64,000 bases of DNA from Enterovibrio sp. JCM 19048 (GTDB taxonomy: Bacteria; Pseudomonadota; Gammaproteobacteria; Enterobacterales; Vibrionaceae): NCBI GenBank assembly GCA_001310415.1, contig BAXE01000006.1, positions 1 to 64,000 of the forward strand, written 5' to 3'. The notes under the pieces were generated by a model, which made no database searches, was not told the DNA's origin, and saw only the letters and a program-made list of their open reading frames with translations. Positions 53,773-64,000 of the stretch are shown here, piece after piece. The first letter of the stretch is position 1, and each line of letters begins with the position of its first letter. Made by a program: the position numbers and the translations under genes.

Positions 53773-54795
53773 TTAAACCATCAAACTGGTCACAAAGTCC
53801 ACATCGACATAGTTCAGGCCGTAGTACCAGCACTCCAATGTCACTTCTGTGCCATCGGCAAATCCGAGCGTGGTGCCATAGGAATCGATGGTGACATTGA
53901 TATCCGCAGCCGAAGTTGCGAGGCTTTGGTGGATCTGGATAGTGTCCTGGTACCAACAAAAATCCTTGATCACATTGCTGCCATCGGTGTGGTCAAAGTA
54001 GAACAGGTCACAACCAGAACCGCCCCAGAGGAGGTCGTTACCGGCAGAGGCCGCCAAAACATCGTTACCACAACCGCCAATCAGCCAGTCATCACCGGCA
54101 CCGGCCCAGATGTCATCATCGCCATATTCGCCCCAGAGTTTGTCGCAGCCTTCACCACCTTCCAGTTTATCGTTGCCGCAACCGCCCACTAAGGTGTCAT
54201 TGCCTTCCTGACCAAATAGCATGTCGTTGCCATCGCCGCCCCAGATGCAGTCATCACCGCCATGACCGAATGCCGTATCATCGCCGGAACCACCCAGAAT
54301 GGTGTCTTTGCCATCCCAACCCCAGATGTAGTCAGCCCCGGCACCGCCATCGATGTAATCATCACCGCCTTCACCATGGATGATGTCATCGCCACACCCA
54401 CCCAGCAGGGTGTCGTTATCTGCGCCGCCAAACAGACGGTCATTGCCATAGCCACCATCAAGGTAATCGCATCCGTTCCCGCCGATCAGCAAATCATCGC
54501 CGCAGCCGCCGTAAATTACGTCATTACCGTCACCACCATCAATACGGTCGTTGCCATCTTGTCCGTAGAGCCAGTCGTTACCGCCGTAACCATAGATTTG
54601 GTCATTGCCCCAACCACCGTAAACGACATCACAGTTTGCACCACCAAAAACGGTATCGTGACCACCGCCGGCATAGACATAATTCAGCCCGTCACCGGTC
54701 CGAATGAGATCATCACCGTCATAGGCGTATATACAGTCGTTTGAAGCTGTACCTTCCAATGTTTCGCTGTCATTGGTACCAATTACATATGCCAT
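53773..54795 (-). CDS. Cysteine-rich RTX nonapeptide-repeat protein
   Basis: An intact 340-residue protein made almost wholly of calcium-binding GGxGxDxhx repeats from about residue 20 to 285 (GGDGNDVIYGGCGDDLLIGG is typical), more than twenty units. A C-terminal region of about 55 residues (DTIQIHQSLATSAADI and following) is the usual type I secretion end. There is no enzymatic domain and no N-terminal signal. Twelve cysteines occur, most inside repeats (GGCGDD, GNGCDYL, EGCDKL, SGCDLFYF). That is very unusual, since RTX proteins are generally Cys-free. No T1SS genes are adjacent. Function unknown; adhesin or S-layer-like coat protein are possibilities. Confidence 0.85.
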   Translation of the reverse strand: MAYVIGTNDSETLEGTASNDCIYAYDGDDLIRTGDGLNYVYAGGGHDTVFGGANCDVVYGGWGNDQIYGYGGNDWLYGQDGNDRIDGGDGNDVIYGGCGDDLLIGGNGCDYLDGGYGNDRLFGGADNDTLLGGCGDDIIHGEGGDDYIDGGAGADYIWGWDGKDTILGGSGDDTAFGHGGDDCIWGGDGNDMLFGQEGNDTLVGGCGNDKLEGGEGCDKLWGEYGDDDIWAGAGDDWLIGGCGNDVLAASAGNDLLWGGSGCDLFYFDHTDGSNVIKDFCWYQDTIQIHQSLATSAADINVTIDSYGTTLGFADGTEVTLECWYYGLNYVDVDFVTSLMV

Positions 54796-55360
54796 GCTCT
54801 TGTCCTCTGTCCTGATATGTCATTGTTATTTGGCCGTGCTGCGTGAAAACCCGCCGCCCAGAAAATCCTAGATGGGTTAAGGCTACTTTAGGTCTCACTG
54901 ATGAAACGACGGGGACGGGAGATCAGGAAAACGATGGATCGCAGTAGAAAAGTACCAAACACAGAGGTTCGAAATCGCCAACACTTGCTTGATACATCAA
55001 GCGGTCGGAAGGGACGGGCTGAAGCCATTCAGATGGCCAGATTGGATGTCAGAGAAGTGGTGAAATCCTCACATAAGAAACGAAAGGACAAAGGGGAGGT
55101 GACGCAGCCAATGAATTTTTTCGGTATTTTCCAAAAGCCTATATTAGTACCTTCTCAGTCGTAAGAAGCAGAGAATCCAAGGCGCATTACAATGCTCGTT
55201 TCAGTTCCGACACAGTGCTACGGGTTTGGGGATTCCAGAGGGAGGCAGTGGGAGTGCTTTGGATAAAATAATGGCCTACCCTAAGTTGTACATTTTCAAC
55301 TTGAAGTAGGCCATAACATTGCAGCCGAAGTTGAAAACTCAGCTGCAGGAGAGGGAAGAA
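54796..55360. other. Intergenic region with palindromic element
   Basis: A 565-bp stretch. An Arg/Lys-rich open frame at 54901-55164 has no ribosome-binding site and poor composition, so I reject it as a gene. The notable content is the 44-bp palindrome at 55271-55314, listed separately. An inverted TGCAGC/GCTGCA pair near 55320-55348 may end the tmaR transcript. Confidence 0.45.
55271..55314. repeat. 44-bp palindrome related to the tnsA leader
   Basis: Arms ATGGCCTAC and GTAGGCCAT are perfect, and inner AAGTTG and CAACTT also pair. The reverse complement of the tnsA leader at 60608-60652 aligns along its whole length with few differences. This shows common descent of the two elements. Confidence 0.8.
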
Positions 55361-55669
55361 TTACTTCTTGCCTTCTTTATCCAGGCGAGTCAATTCTTTG
55401 ATTTGACGTGAAATTTCGCGACGCTCCTTCGAAATTTCCGCGCTCTTGATGATGTGGTCATCTACACGGTCTTCGTAGTCTGCTTTCATGTTCTTGACGA
55501 TCTCAACGATTTCTTCGTGAGTCATTTCTGGCTGAATGTAGTCAAGCAGGTTCTCAAGCAGGGTAACGCGCTTTTGGTTGTCGCGGATTTTCTTTTCGTT
55601 GTCCTGAATTTCCCGCTTCAGTTTGTTTTTGCGACGAGAGAACTTAACGATCTCGAATACATTGTTCAT
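55361..55669 (-). CDS. tmaR: DUF496 protein, TmaR/YeeX family
   Basis: An intact 102-residue coiled-coil protein. The family core is evident in [37 protein letters not shown] and [14 protein letters not shown]. In E. coli TmaR localises to cell poles and sequesters phosphotransferase enzyme I, tuning sugar uptake. The match to YeeX is strong along the whole length. Confidence 0.9.
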
Positions 55670-59147: not shown

Positions 59148-60506
59148 TTGATCTCTGTTGAAAAATATGAGGGATTAACCGCACGGATCGCGCTGATAAA
59201 CGAAGAGATAAAACGACAGGATGTCGAATTCTACCTGTTTGTTCCCGGTGAACTTAACTTCTCTAACAATGTGCTTAGTGAAGACGGGTTTTATAATCAG
59301 GTTCTTTCCAATACCCGCACTTACTTTTCGTCGCAATATCACTTGCCGCTGGTACATTCGCGTCTGGCGAGCCGGGACAAACTGCCGTCTGACAAATACC
59401 GCGTCAGCTTGAGTTTGTACGCCTATCAATATGCACTCTCACTGGAAAAAACCACCCACAGATTCTTTGATACCGTTGCCGATGTTGAAGAGGAAGAGGC
59501 GGTAGAGCAGCTTGAAGTCATCACCGATATGGCGGTGGAGATCCTCCGTCGTTTGCGTCGTTACGTGCCGAAAGACGAAGGCTTGATCAAATACTACAAC
59601 AACGTCGATAACTACCTGTCATGGTTAACCGAGCAGCGATTCCTTTCGCTGGTGGCTCACATGCCAAGAAGTGCGGCATTCAAACCGATCCGCGAGCAAT
59701 TGATAGCGTTCTGTGAGTCTGAAGCTGCCTACCGGATTGAGCAAAACTACAACTCTGTCAAAGCGCAGCGTGACCCGACGCGAATGGTCAACAAGATGCG
59801 CCTTGCCCGTCGCCTGATTGAATATCCGGTTACCATTCGTCAGAAAGATGTGTTGCTTGGGCAAAACCTCAACAAAATCGTAAAGGGTGCCGCCGCCGGT
59901 CTGGTGATGATTTTCGTTACCTTCGCCATTATCCGTATGCGCAGTTTCCTTGGTGAAATTACCCTTTCGTTTGTCATGGCGATGGCAGGCCTGTATGCCA
60001 TGCGCGAGATATTCAAAGACGATTTACGTGAAGTGCTGTGGCGCTGGCTACGTAAAGGCCGTCCGAAATGGCGCAAGGTCTTTACGGATCCAACTTCAGG
60101 GCAAACCATAGGTAACCAGCTTGAATGGCTGGATTACATCCCGTTTGACAAGATCCCGGAAGACGTAAAGAAAATCCGCAAAGGCAAGTTGCGTCAGCGG
60201 GAAGAATCGGTTGTCCGCATCAAGATGGTTACCAATATGTCGACCACCAAATTCCTCAGTGGTTATGACATGACCCGGGAAGTATGGCGTGTTGATTTCA
60301 GACCGTTTTCCCGCTTGATGGCACGTGGTAAGCAACGTTTTTACGCCTTGAATGACGGTCAGGTCTCCCACGAGTCTATCGACAAACGTCACCAGTTCAA
60401 TCTGGTATCCAAGCAGAAAAACCAGGATGGCAGCTTTACTGTCCAGCGTTGGAAAATAACAGTAAACCGCTCCAAGGTGATCGACGTCGAAGAGGTGTTC
60501 TCATAA
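59148..60506 (+). CDS. Conserved two-TM protein of unknown function
   Basis: An intact 452-residue protein. The start TTG has GGAG seven bases upstream. The N-terminal 240 residues are soluble and helical (VEEEEAVEQLEVITDMAVEI), two TM helices follow at about 245-290, then a basic C-terminal domain (WRWLRKGRPKWRK, WRVDFRPFSRLM). I recognise no named domain. Its 3' end lies 36 bp before the inferred end of the Tn7-like element, so it may be the target gene of that element. Confidence 0.65.
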   Translation: MISVEKYEGLTARIALINEEIKRQDVEFYLFVPGELNFSNNVLSEDGFYNQVLSNTRTYFSSQYHLPLVHSRLASRDKLPSDKYRVSLSLYAYQYALSLEKTTHRFFDTVADVEEEEAVEQLEVITDMAVEILRRLRRYVPKDEGLIKYYNNVDNYLSWLTEQRFLSLVAHMPRSAAFKPIREQLIAFCESEAAYRIEQNYNSVKAQRDPTRMVNKMRLARRLIEYPVTIRQKDVLLGQNLNKIVKGAAAGLVMIFVTFAIIRMRSFLGEITLSFVMAMAGLYAMREIFKDDLREVLWRWLRKGRPKWRKVFTDPTSGQTIGNQLEWLDYIPFDKIPEDVKKIRKGKLRQREESVVRIKMVTNMSTTKFLSGYDMTREVWRVDFRPFSRLMARGKQRFYALNDGQVSHESIDKRHQFNLVSKQKNQDGSFTVQRWKITVNRSKVIDVEEVFS

Positions 60507-60529: not shown

Positions 60530-60607
60530 AGATAGAATCGCTTGTGGCTGGAACCATAAGATGACATTTGGGACATAGTAAGTGTCATTTTGGACAGCTA
60601 AGTTGTC

Positions 60608-60652
60608 ATGGTCTACTTTTAGGTTGTAAATTTACAACTTGGGGTAGGCCAT
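60608..60652. promoter_or_regulatory. Palindrome overlapping the tnsA start
   Basis: Arms ATGGTCTAC (60608-60616) and GTAGGCCAT (60644-60652), with TTGTAAATTTACAA as a perfect inner palindrome. The right arm includes the A and T of the tnsA ATG, an ideal position for a repressor or an attenuating hairpin. A related copy lies at 55271-55314. Confidence 0.6.
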
Positions 60653-61280
60653 GTATCCAAATACCATCAAAAAGCCGCACGCTAAGAAAAATATCTTCAA
60701 ATTCATTAGCGTTAAAAATAGCGCCATCATCATGTGCGAATCATCGCTCGAGTTTGATGCCTGTTTTCATCTCGAATACCACCCCAACGTCGTTTCATTC
60801 GAAAGCCAACCCTTCTGCTTTAACTACCAGTTAGAGGACGGCTCTCACAGCTACACGCCAGATTTCCTCGTCACACTCAAAAGCGGTCATAAGTCACTGC
60901 AAGAAACCAAAGATTCAAAGTTCTGTCTAACACCTGAATACCTCCATATTTTCGAAGCCATGCAAAAAGGTAGCGAGGCTATCGGATTTCCTTTGCACCT
61001 AGTCACGGAGCAACAAATTCGTAAAGGATTCATCTTAGACAACCTTAAATTGATTCATCGATATGCAGGCTCAAAACATATTTGTGATTTTAAAAAGTCA
61101 GTGATTGAAGTTATTCAGAATCAGGGGCTGTCGACACCTGGCAAGCTTGTCTGCGTTTTCGGCAAGTCCATTGGTTTTATGAACCGAGAGTTATTGGAGC
61201 TCATGAGCCTTGGTTTAGTTAAGGCCCATCTGGAAAACTCTCTGTTTAATGAAGACACGGAACTATGGGTGAAAGAATGA
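60651..61280 (+). CDS. tnsA: Tn7-like transposase endonuclease subunit TnsA
   Basis: An intact 209-residue protein. The catalytic core of the restriction-endonuclease fold is CESSLEFD (Glu), SYTPDFLV (Asp71) and QETKDSKF (Glu85-x-Lys87). The C-terminal half is a winged-helix-type domain (STPGKLVCVFGKSIGFMNRE). With TnsB it makes the 5' cuts for cut-and-paste transposition. Its stop overlaps the tnsB ATG (ATGA). Confidence 0.9.
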   Translation: MYPNTIKKPHAKKNIFKFISVKNSAIIMCESSLEFDACFHLEYHPNVVSFESQPFCFNYQLEDGSHSYTPDFLVTLKSGHKSLQETKDSKFCLTPEYLHIFEAMQKGSEAIGFPLHLVTEQQIRKGFILDNLKLIHRYAGSKHICDFKKSVIEVIQNQGLSTPGKLVCVFGKSIGFMNRELLELMSLGLVKAHLENSLFNEDTELWVKE

Positions 61281-63180
61281 GCGATATCGGCCCATTCGAT
61301 GACGAATCTAGACGTGAACTGGTAAGTAACAACGAGAGTCACCCTGATGATGTTTCTAAGGAAGACTCAGAGCTTTGTTACCGCCCTCTAAATACAGTAA
61401 CGGTTTATGAACGAGATTTAGACAGTTTCCCAGAAGAACGAAAAAATGAGGCCTTAGAAAGATTTAAGCTCTTGTCACTTATTGGAAAGGAACTCAACGG
61501 GCCTTGGCCGTTAGACCAAGTAAAAGCGTTAATCGAAAAGCATAAAGATGACATCACGATTTCTACTCCTAGTCCAAGAACAGTGTTGCGCTGGAGGGAA
61601 CGTTACGAGAGAAGCGACGGCGATTTGAAGTCTCTAATCGTTAGAAATCATGCTAAGGGCAACCGAAAACCCAAGGTCGTGGGAGATGAGTATTACTTCG
61701 ATTTAGCCGTCCAAAGTTGGCTTGAGGCGGAAAGGCCAAAAATTTCTAAAGCCTATGAACGCTACTCAGACTCTATTGATGTCGCCAATGAAAACATTGT
61801 TGCCGGGAAAATACCCTGCGTCAGCTATAAAACGTTCTCAAGACGGCTCAAACAGCTCCCACCTTATGCTGTTGCCCTGCAAAGGCATGGCAAGTACTTC
61901 GCAGATCTCTGGTATCGCCATAATGCTAAACATAAACCGCCGACGCGAGTGTTAGAACGCGTTGAAATCGATCATACACAGCTCGATTTGATGCTGCTCC
62001 ATGATGAGTACCTTGTCCCTATTGGGCGCCCTTGTTTAACCATGCTTATCGATGTCTTTAGTGGCTGCATCATTGGTTTCCATCTCGGTTTTCATGCCCC
62101 CGGATATGCAACAGTTGCTAAGGCGTTACTTAATGCCATGAAGCCTAAAGATTACGTTAAAGACTTACCGATTGAGCTTAACAACCAGTGGCTTTGCGAG
62201 GGAAAAATCGAAAGGTTGGTGATGGACAATGGGGCTGAATTTTGGTCAAAAAGTATCGATGATGCCTGTAAAGAACTCAACATTGCAGTCCAATACAATC
62301 CTGTAAAAAAGCCTTGGTTAAAACCTTTCATAGAAAGGTCATTCGGTATTCTGAATCAAACTTTACTCGACACCATTCCGGGAAAGACGTTTTCAAATGT
62401 CCTGGAAAAAGGTGACTATGACGCTGCCAACAAGGCGGTTATGAAGTTTTCCACGTTTGTTGAAGAACTGCATCGATGGATTATCGATGTTCACAACGCG
62501 AAGGCCGATTCTAGAAACAATCGCTTGCCCAATTTATATTGGCGTCAAAGCGTGAAAACGCTTCCGCTCCCCGCCTCCCTGTGAAGGACAGCAAGCAACT
62601 TTCTATTATCATGGGGCTTTTAGATAAGCGGAAACTGACAGAGAAAGGCTTTCAATATGAAGACTTATTCTATCGCAGCCAAGCACTCGCTGATTACCGC
62701 GCAAGGTTTCCACAGACGAAAGAATCTGCGATGAAAACCATCAAAGTCGACCCAGATGACATGTCGAGAATTTTCGTTTTTCTAGAGGAACTTGATGGCT
62801 ATATTGAAGTGCCCTGTGATGATCCCGTCGGCTACACCAAGCACCTTTCGCTTCATGAACATCTCATTATCAAACGTGCTCATAAATTATACATAAAAGG
62901 ACATGTAGACACGCTTTCGCTGGCCAAAGCTCGGCTGGCATTGGCGGCTCGAATGGAAGAAGAAACCGAAGATCTACGCACTTTTAAAAGGAAGCGTAAG
63001 CCACCTAAAAATATGAAAAAGATAGCAGAATTTTCAGGCATTAGCAGTGCAGAAATTGAGTCTAAGCCTCCGACTCAAAAGGAAAAAGCACCGAAAAACA
63101 GCAAAGATGAAGAATTGAAGAAAGCGGCTGAATTTTTGGACGAATGGGAAGAGATACTTGGAGAGTTAGATGACGAATAG
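61277..63180 (+). CDS. tnsB: Tn7-like transposase TnsB, DDE type (one frameshift)
   Basis: About 634 residues, with a break near 62570. The ATG at 61277 lies in an ATGA overlap with tnsA; an ATG at 61265 would add four residues. The DDE triad is Asp232 in VEIDHTQLD, Asp317 in LVMDNGAEFW and Glu353 in KPFIERSFG. N-terminal helix-turn-helix regions include STPSPRTVLRWRERYERSDG. The C-terminal tail is Lys/Glu-rich (KRKRKPPKNMKK), the part that contacts TnsC in the family. Confidence 0.9.
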
Positions 63181-64000
63181 CAGCATGAATGAGGTAGAGC
63201 TGCTCGTCTCTAATTTCAATCAGTCTTTTGCATTGTTTCCGCCCTTTGACGCGATTCTTGGCGACCTTGAAAAGTTACGTATTAAAAGTGCGAGAGCTGG
63301 CTTTAAATCCTCAATGTTGGTTTTCGGTGACACAGGTGCGGGTAAATCAGCATTGCTTGAGCATTTCACCAAATCAAGCCAGACAAAAACGGGCCCAAAG
63401 GTACTAAGGACGAGAGTCCGGCCATCACTGCAAGAAACACTTACCTGGACTCTTCACGATTTGAACCCACACCGAAAAAACGATCGATTTATAAAAAAGG
63501 CTTCTGAAATCGGCTTAACAGATATGGTAATCCGAGAGTTGAAACAGTCGAATATAGGTATGGTGATTATTGATGAGTGTCAGGAGTTTGTGGAAATTCG
63601 TTCAGGCGACGACAAAAAAGACATCAGTAATCGATTAAAAATGATCAGTGAAGAAGCTTCCGTCTCAATGGTGTTTGTCGGTATGCTTGGTCAAAGGAAA
63701 TTGCTAGAGATAGTCAGTGGGAGTCTAGAATTCGCATCGTAAGGGAGATCCCTTATTTCAAAGTGATCAACGATGATGGCAGTAACAACAAAGAGGAAAT
63801 GAAGCGGTTTGCTCTGAGTTTGAAAGCAATCTCCAATTTGATGCCCTTTTCGAAGCGCCCTGAATTAGAACTGCCCAAGTTGAGTTTTCCACTTTTGGCT
63901 TACTCTAGGGGAGAAATGAGAGCGCTGAAAGATTTGTTGGCTGATGCTCTAGAGCTTGCATTGCTTGAAGGTGCAGAAACTCTGACTAGAAACCATTTAA
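63170..64000 (+). CDS. tnsC: Tn7-like AAA+ regulator TnsC, partial (one frameshift, runs off window)
   Basis: It starts MTNSSMNEVELLVSN, overlapping the tnsB stop by 11 bp. Walker A is VFGDTGAGKSALLEHF and Walker B is MVIIDECQEFVE. A base is missing near 63718; the frame then reads QWESRIRIVREIPYFKV to the window end. This AAA+ ATPase links target selectors such as TniQ/TnsD to the TnsAB transposase. The C-terminus is outside the window. Confidence 0.88.

Follow-up and report, generated by a model that had tools for sequence, protein, structure and literature searches.

The first 64,000 bases of contig C6 (248,241 bases) of Enterovibrio sp. JCM 19048, hereafter the window, contain the beginning of a Tn7-like element inserted immediately downstream of a gene for a conserved membrane protein of 452 amino acids (aa). 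Our analysis indicates, with a probability of roughly 0.93, that the element is a type I-F3 CRISPR-associated transposon (CAST; CRISPR, clustered regularly interspaced short palindromic repeats), apparently closest to I-F3b, and that it homes by guide RNA on the 452-aa gene. The element is of a known kind; the homing site appears to be new, since we did not find it described in the portions of the literature consulted. Window and contig coordinates agree, and DNA beyond the window end was fetched from the contig to reach the other end of the element. The genome assembly comprises 5.27 Mb in 70 contigs and is 87.5% complete (the tool's figure). The features on which the argument rests are as follows.

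59148..60506, + strand: 452-aa conserved membrane-protein gene, the homing gene (homologue searches, hydrophobic stretch)
60460..60461, + strand: protospacer-adjacent motif (PAM), CA, the bases before the protospacer
60462..60494, + strand: protospacer of the last spacer, 23/33 identical, in the 3′ end of the 452-aa gene
60538..60542, unstranded: target-site duplication TCGCT, first copy; second copy at contig 90772–90776
60543..60650, + strand: tnsA-proximal end (R end by the usual convention) with three TAAG boxes (box scan, end comparison)
60604..60652, unstranded: palindrome over the tnsA start, perhaps the operator of a regulator
60651..61280, + strand: tnsA (Pfam PF08722, E 2.1e-9)
61265..63180, + strand: tnsB, two overlapping frames in the assembly (rve, Mu-transpos_C)
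63170..64000 in the window, + strand: tnsC, two frames, continuing beyond the window as far as contig 64191 (TniB, 1.6e-13)
Contig 64188–64502, divergent: Xre-type regulator (domain search)

Ends, duplication and gene content of the element

The element spans contig positions 60543–90771, a length of 30,229 bp. The original prediction had placed a Tn7-like end with three spaced TAAG boxes 36 bp past the stop of the 59148–60506 gene, and this placement is confirmed: the tnsA-proximal terminus TGTGGCTGGAACCATAAG occupies 60543–60560, beginning 36 bp after the TAA at 60504–60506, and the closely spaced boxes lie at 60557, 60579, and 60599 (element positions 15, 37, and 57). The second end and the target duplication for which it had proposed to look are both present in the extended contig. 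Specifically, the second terminus, CTTATCGTCCTCGCCACA, lies at 90754–90771; read in reverse complement it is TGTGGCGAGGACGATAAG, reaching 90771, differs from the first end at 4 of 18 letters, and has box-like sites at positions 15, 70, and 93, wider apart than those of the tnsA end. TCGCT directly flanks both ends, at 60538–60542 and again at 90772–90776. The element thus has the end features of a type I-F3 CAST: TGT/ACA ends, repeated TnsB boxes, and a 5-bp duplication. An empty-site comparison with the two flanks joined matched only the gene 3′ end, the 6-kb right flank having no blastn match in the relatives' fetched stretches; the duplication and the matching ends therefore bear the argument.

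The gene order is tnsA, tnsB, tnsC, the Xre-type gene, a type I restriction-modification system, the PDC-M26A/B candidate, tniQ, cas8/5, cas7, cas6, the CRISPR array, and a 3.5-kb DNase stretch. The Tn7-type genes tnsA, tnsB, and tnsC are all present, with TnsB relatives 49–95% identical; in TnsB, rve is found at 1.5e-7 (32.1 bits, just below the curated cut-off of 32.6) and Mu-transpos_C at 1.2e-5. Family searches identify TniQ, Cas7/Csy3, and Cas6/Csy4. The Cas8/5 pieces have no meaningful Pfam or NCBIfam match and match the I-F3 Cas8/5 chains of solved structures (5e-28 and 9e-34 to 7u5d). TniQ together with subtype I-F Cascade genes (cas8/5, cas7, cas6) is the gene set of an I-F3 CAST. The restriction-modification system is cargo, and PADLOC also lists PDC-M26A/B as a candidate defence system. 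The 3.5-kb stretch after the array contains a colicin-type DNase domain; pyocin/colicin-type DNase pieces at contig 87641–89180, between the array and the right end, are possible bacteriocin cargo.

The assignment as a Tn7-like element with cas genes and cargo beyond the window thus holds. Of the two contents that had been proposed for the unseen part, TniQ with a Cascade is present, while the alternative, a TnsD recognizing the gene 3′ end, finds no counterpart. Protein-guided homing of the latter kind, as in Tn7 or Tn7017, would be consistent with the location, as TnsD elements too insert downstream of conserved genes. The single TniQ match in the whole genome, however, lies at contig 81989–82381, ahead of cas8, and the open piece after it resembles the C-terminal part of solved TniQ chains of 358–432 aa, which identifies it as the short kind; no TnsD or second long TniQ was found in the genome as assembled. 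Neither Cas1 nor I-F Cas3 has a match in the genome as assembled (Cas2 was not searched separately). At 87.5% completeness these absences are not absolute, and a TnsD could have been missed, but the guide match set out below already accounts for the site, and homing by TnsD is extremely improbable.

The last spacer matches the 3′ end of the 452-aa gene

The CRISPR array at contig 87044–87252 has four repeats: two are identical, the third carries two changes (93%), and the fourth is 71% identical to the first. The last spacer, GTCAATCGATCCAAAGTTATGGAAGTAGATGAA, sits between the third (variant) and the fourth (atypical) repeat. Its best match in the window is 60462–60494, with 23 of 33 positions identical, the runner-up having 21. 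In a shuffle control, 200 shuffled spacers over 24 kb gave a best count of 22 and a mean of 19.2, so that a count of 23/33 is weak by itself. The guide assignment rests on three further properties of the match: all ten mismatches fall at third codon positions (P about 1e-7 if ten positions are drawn at random); the protospacer is preceded by a CA PAM; and 48 bp separate the protospacer from the insertion, within the distance of about 47–51 bp characteristic of I-F3 attachment-site (att) guides. Read in frame, the spacer gives VNRSKVMEVDE and the target VNRSKVIDVEE, seven of the ten changes being synonymous and three altering the residue. In the portions of the papers available to us, a range of 47–51 bp between att protospacer and insertion (PMC12452197), wobble-mismatch tolerance at I-F3 att sites, and CA/CG PAMs at yciA (PMC11406308, PMC12774636) are reported.

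The match extends to other species. Against 19 homologues of the gene, the guide matches at 20–27 of 33 positions, mostly with third-position mismatches, and the preceding bases are CA, CG, or CT in all. Among the 17 genus members having the gene, matches number 21–27 of 33 with CN PAMs, and the codon before the protospacer is Thr in 17 of 17. With its mismatches confined to third positions and a CN PAM supplied by a Thr codon, the match shows how one guide can keep track of a protein in different species.

CASTs and CAST traces recur at the 452-aa gene

We compared 19 genomes: 17 Enterovibrio/Grimontia genomes with the 452-aa gene (the source genome included; an 18th lacks the gene) and two Veronia genomes. 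A CAST or a trace of one is present at the 3′ end of the gene in 7 of the 19, and none was detected in 12. In particular, the source genome (G000) has the full element; G401 has tnsA, some of tnsB and, immediately beyond its right end, another end-like sequence; G400 (locus L071) has, 38 bp past the stop, both ends within a total of 3,684 bp that contain no tns or cas protein match, perhaps a non-autonomous CAST; G396 has the first end alone, with two changes; in G395 (L072) and G406 (L073), an atypical repeat with an array terminator adjoins the stop codon of the gene without any gap, the local scores being 92 and 93 in comparison with the Veronia array end (shuffle maximum 27); and V. nyctiphanis (G490) has the start of a more distant tnsA, from another CAST lineage (47% over 45 aa). 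The insertions in G000, G401, G400, and G396 all lie 36–38 bp past the stop. A complete CAST set is also present in G400, behind an ffs-like sequence (L084).

The ends are conserved among these copies. G401, G490, and G491 have ends that match the tnsA-proximal end with 97% identity over 117 bp, and the non-tnsA end is letter-for-letter identical in the related elements of G401 and G400 at the same gene; a clean duplication is absent in G401 (TGCGG/TGCGT) and G400 (AATCC/GTCAC). In 416,567 bases of relatives, both strands, picked largely around the two genes concerned and hence not equivalent to a random-genome control, the 18-bp end (at most 2 mismatches) has four matches: three at the 3′ end of the 452-aa gene and one at the DUF496 gene described below. 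Relaxing the scan to at most 4 mismatches gave chance-like matches 1.4–2.8 kb past the 452-aa gene in L064, L065, L068, and L069, which were excluded from the trace count. In the DNA of G401 and G000, the first 1000 bp of the element are 90.5% identical and the gene 3′ ends 75.5% (204 bp); the proteins are similar in identity (TnsA 93%, 452-aa protein 90%). As the element is more alike than the gene end, the comparison suggests that the two elements arrived separately.

Alternatively, the insertion could be a one-off, made by an ordinary spacer or by chance, in which case the 452-aa gene would be no real homing site. A TnsB alignment scan of named species genomes, which yielded 202 relatives and was narrowed to the best 80, is in line with this: in 76 of the 80 loci the DNA before tnsA amounts to 1.5 kb or more, and not one of these 76 lies at the 452-aa gene, which occurs in a single survey locus (Veronia), as a neighbour. 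The att guide of the closest sister element, moreover, targets another gene. A one-off does not account, however, for four genomes with insertions at near-equal distances from the stop, for the array-end remnants in G395 and G406, or for the tnsA start of another lineage in V. nyctiphanis, and the guide adjoins the atypical repeat, as att guides do. We consider a one-off insertion very improbable and guide-RNA homing on the 452-aa gene the preferred reading.

Evidence against the assignment, and integrity of the copy

Several observations weigh against guide-RNA homing on the 452-aa gene or against activity of this copy. The ten mismatches include positions 3 and 9, on the seed side, and 27 and 33, on the PAM-distal side. 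Direct guide evidence for the gene comes from one element only, and no array was detected in the G401 copy. Spacers 1 and 2 have no convincing phage or plasmid target: a plasmid search gave no match for either, and a phage search gave none for spacer 2 and only weak matches for spacer 1 (E 0.9 in 7 records, with 66% of the query covered). As to activity, each of tnsB, tnsC, tniQ, cas8/5, and cas6 is broken into more than one frame in the assembly.

The frame breaks cannot be read as decay, because host genes are split too: 12 of the 27 compared with G403 in the window are broken. In V. nyctiphanis, TnsB (642 aa), TnsC (350 aa), TniQ, Cas7, and Cas6 are in whole frames and cas8/5 is in three. 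The cas8 break at contig 84160–84240 is common to V. nyctiphanis (L094/L095), in a separate assembly, and may be real; the gene may be split, both copies may carry one lesion, or the break may be a frameshift signal. It is nevertheless conceivable, although unlikely, that the copy is dead and decaying and that its frameshifts are real, a state compatible with arrival by guide RNA. The five split core genes, the cas8 break shared at the same place, and the degraded condition of most other copies at both sites speak for decay, while the indel-rich assembly, the intact ends, duplication, array, and cas7, and the whole frames in V. nyctiphanis speak against it.

The closest sister element homes on the neighbouring DUF496 gene

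The original prediction had called for a comparison with relatives at the same gene. Related elements and traces do occur there, as described above, but the closest sister does not: it lies in Veronia nyctiphanis CAIM 600 (L133, contig 60 of G490), 14 bp downstream of the DUF496 stop codon. Two features of the window belong to this second site.

55361..55669, − strand: DUF496 gene, the homing gene of the Veronia sister element (Pfam PF04363)
55271..55318, − strand: CAST tnsA-leader remnant, about 42 bp past the DUF496 stop, 84% over 48 bp

The two elements are alike in their proteins (TnsA 91%, TnsB 95% over the 436 residues compared, Cas7 87%, and Xre 95% identical), in the tnsA-proximal end (97% over 117 bp), and in the position of the last guide, next to an atypical repeat that is of the same type in both. 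They differ in att guide and site, which in Veronia are for the DUF496 gene: the last Veronia spacer matches DUF496 at 27 of 32 nucleotides (nt), with a CA PAM and 51 bp to the insertion. The other end of the Veronia element was not found in the 40 kb read. The DUF496 and 452-aa genes are divergent neighbours, with starts 3.5 kb apart in the window and 2.8 kb apart in V. nyctiphanis. Since the closest sister homes on a nearby, different gene, the lineage is not bound to one site.

The DUF496 site was examined in 14 genomes; the stretches of G406, G410, G399, and G394 have no DUF496 hit, and G405 and G409 lie outside the sample. CAST traces are present in 6 of the 14 (G490, G491, G404, G000, G407, and G401). 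G491 has a degraded element with an array-end remnant after a tnsA piece; G404 has a 20-bp end; and G407 has a weaker leader remnant (score 34, shuffle maximum 23). In the source genome, the leader remnant in the window has an E of 5.5e-7 in a whole-genome search and a local score of 57, where 300 shuffles reached at most 31, and probably is the trace of an older insertion at the DUF496 site. G401 has a tnsA-start-like stretch (33% over 55 aa; E 3e-6, the search space being three short stretches); its leader score of 17 is not above shuffles (123 of 300 as high). Scores at the remaining 8 of the 14 sites are within shuffles.

One might speculate that the neighbouring genes form a paired docking station from which the att guide can be renewed, the joints in G395 and G406 being products of spacer–protospacer recombination. 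A joint of this type would put host gene sequence in the place of a spacer, before the atypical repeat; att guides would then be made or refreshed without Cas1 and Cas2, which could explain switching between the neighbouring genes. Plain deletion also accounts for the joint, however, and the joint lies 12 nt past the protospacer (in the register of G000) rather than at its edge. We regard guide renewal of this kind as improbable. Irrespective of it, sister elements that are 95% alike in TnsB and have different guides for genes 2.8–3.5 kb apart, both of which bear remnants of earlier insertions, make guide switching accessible to study in close relatives. I-F3 CASTs lack spacer-acquisition genes.

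Proposed mechanism

The anatomy of the element, its ends and duplication, the guide match with its spacing, and the recurrence of CASTs at the gene are observations; the molecular steps are deduced from them. In the mechanism that we propose, a crRNA (CRISPR RNA) made from the last spacer, between the variant and atypical repeats, would be active in a TniQ–Cascade complex and would pair with the 452-aa gene at the conserved 3′ end of its coding sequence. The CN PAM would be fixed by the protein itself, through the Thr codon ACN. TnsC and TnsAB would next place the element 48 bp beyond the protospacer, its tnsA end facing the gene, and create a 5-bp duplication while the gene stays intact. As the mismatches lie at third codon positions, such a guide would track the protein rather than the exact DNA and could serve across species.

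Other features of the contig

To the right of the element, from about contig position 91285, long open reading frames occur in several frames, one with an SpvB domain. Elsewhere in the window, 53773–54795 encodes a 340-aa protein consisting mostly of RTX calcium-binding repeats.

The 452-aa gene among known attachment sites

Homologues of the 452-aa protein are present in 128 of 394 genomes of the order and in 17 of 18 of the genus; a hydrophobic stretch spans approximately residues 241–285. The protein has no match in Pfam (E ≤ 0.001), NCBIfam (E ≤ 0.01), or PDB (E ≤ 1). The products of guaC, yciA, rsmJ, parE, or cobO would be expected to give a Pfam or NCBIfam match, and ffs is an RNA gene. 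The gene therefore falls outside the known att set (guaC, yciA, ffs, rsmJ, parE, cobO, and the ANA-3 hypothetical-protein gene), and the suggestion that it is none of the sites known for such elements is borne out by its absence from the att-site lists compared, as far as those were available. The ANA-3 hypothetical-protein gene was considered as an earlier report of the same site and rejected: it is a different gene, and its locus (L160) has no match to the 452-aa protein at E ≤ 1e-8.

In the parts of the literature accessible to us, the sites reported are four main I-F3 att sites plus parE (review PMC11406308), with I-F3b elements at ffs and rsmJ (same review); four loci accounting for 94% of I-F3 homing (PMC12774636); cobO, ParM/StbA, and hypothetical proteins in Shewanella (PMC12452197); and the signal recognition particle RNA (SRP-RNA), IMPDH/guaC, and yciA in Vibrio (PMC6360697). 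The accessible portions of PMC10293859 and PMC8649781 name no att site resembling the 452-aa gene. Among the papers listed by the literature searches, none could be seen to describe the 452-aa gene or DUF496 as an I-F3 att site; a mention in the tables of Petassi et al. 2020 or Klompe et al. 2022, which lie outside this comparison, is conceivable.

Comparison with known systems

In the TnsB survey, with att labels given by short motifs recognized by eye rather than by family searches, the gene beside tnsA among the best 80 of 202 relatives is ffs in 45, rsmJ in 15, of the ANA-3 type in 3, cobO in 2, AraC in 1, DUF496 in 1, other in 12, and unknown in 1. In a TnsB tree of 83 rows, the source element, Veronia, and G597 cluster together (100/100), next to ffs and AraC elements of Vibrio, and the source element pairs with Veronia (99/69).

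The G597 element (Vibrio, 285-kb contig) is alike in TnsB (85–87% identical) and TnsA (79%), but its TniQ and Cas proteins are 42–52% identical and its last guide resembles, by eye, the AraC-gene guide. In this combination the tns module is paired with another Cascade, which points to module swapping. The element at G597 C3 (L096) is inserted beside a CRISPR-repeat-like stretch. Related CASTs of Vibrio lie at an AraC-family att site in L089 (G249) and L102 (G511); the last spacer of L089 matches the AraC gene 3′ end at 21 of 32 positions with a 37-bp gap, and with a spacer of uncertain length, perhaps shortened, this match serves as a lead only. In L221, L222, and L223 (G675, G627, and G579; Vibrio group), a CAST end of 30–33 bp lies 6 bp past the stop of a gene with an RNA-helicase-like C-terminus (by eye), possibly an old scar at a further site.

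Among structurally characterized systems, the closest is 7u5d, which we take to be Tn6900 of Aeromonas salmonicida, an I-F3b element. Cas7 and TniQ score 324 and 152 bits against 7u5d and 146 and 38 bits against the Tn6677 entries 6pig/6pif. Cas7 and TniQ favour I-F3b in this comparison; a diverged last repeat is present, as is an Xre-type gene, which in the I-F3b branch would be of the RtbC rather than the RtaC type. The I-F3b-type CAST of Shewanella sp. ANA-3 also follows a hypothetical-protein gene (PMC12452197, in the portion available), but a different one from the 452-aa gene. Tn6900-type I-F3b elements, the best PDB match for Cas7 and TniQ, have the same tnsABC genes, a single TniQ, a Cascade without Cas3, an Xre gene after tnsC, and an atypical repeat with an att guide; they differ from the Enterovibrio element in att site, for which ffs and rsmJ are reported in the part of PMC11406308 consulted.

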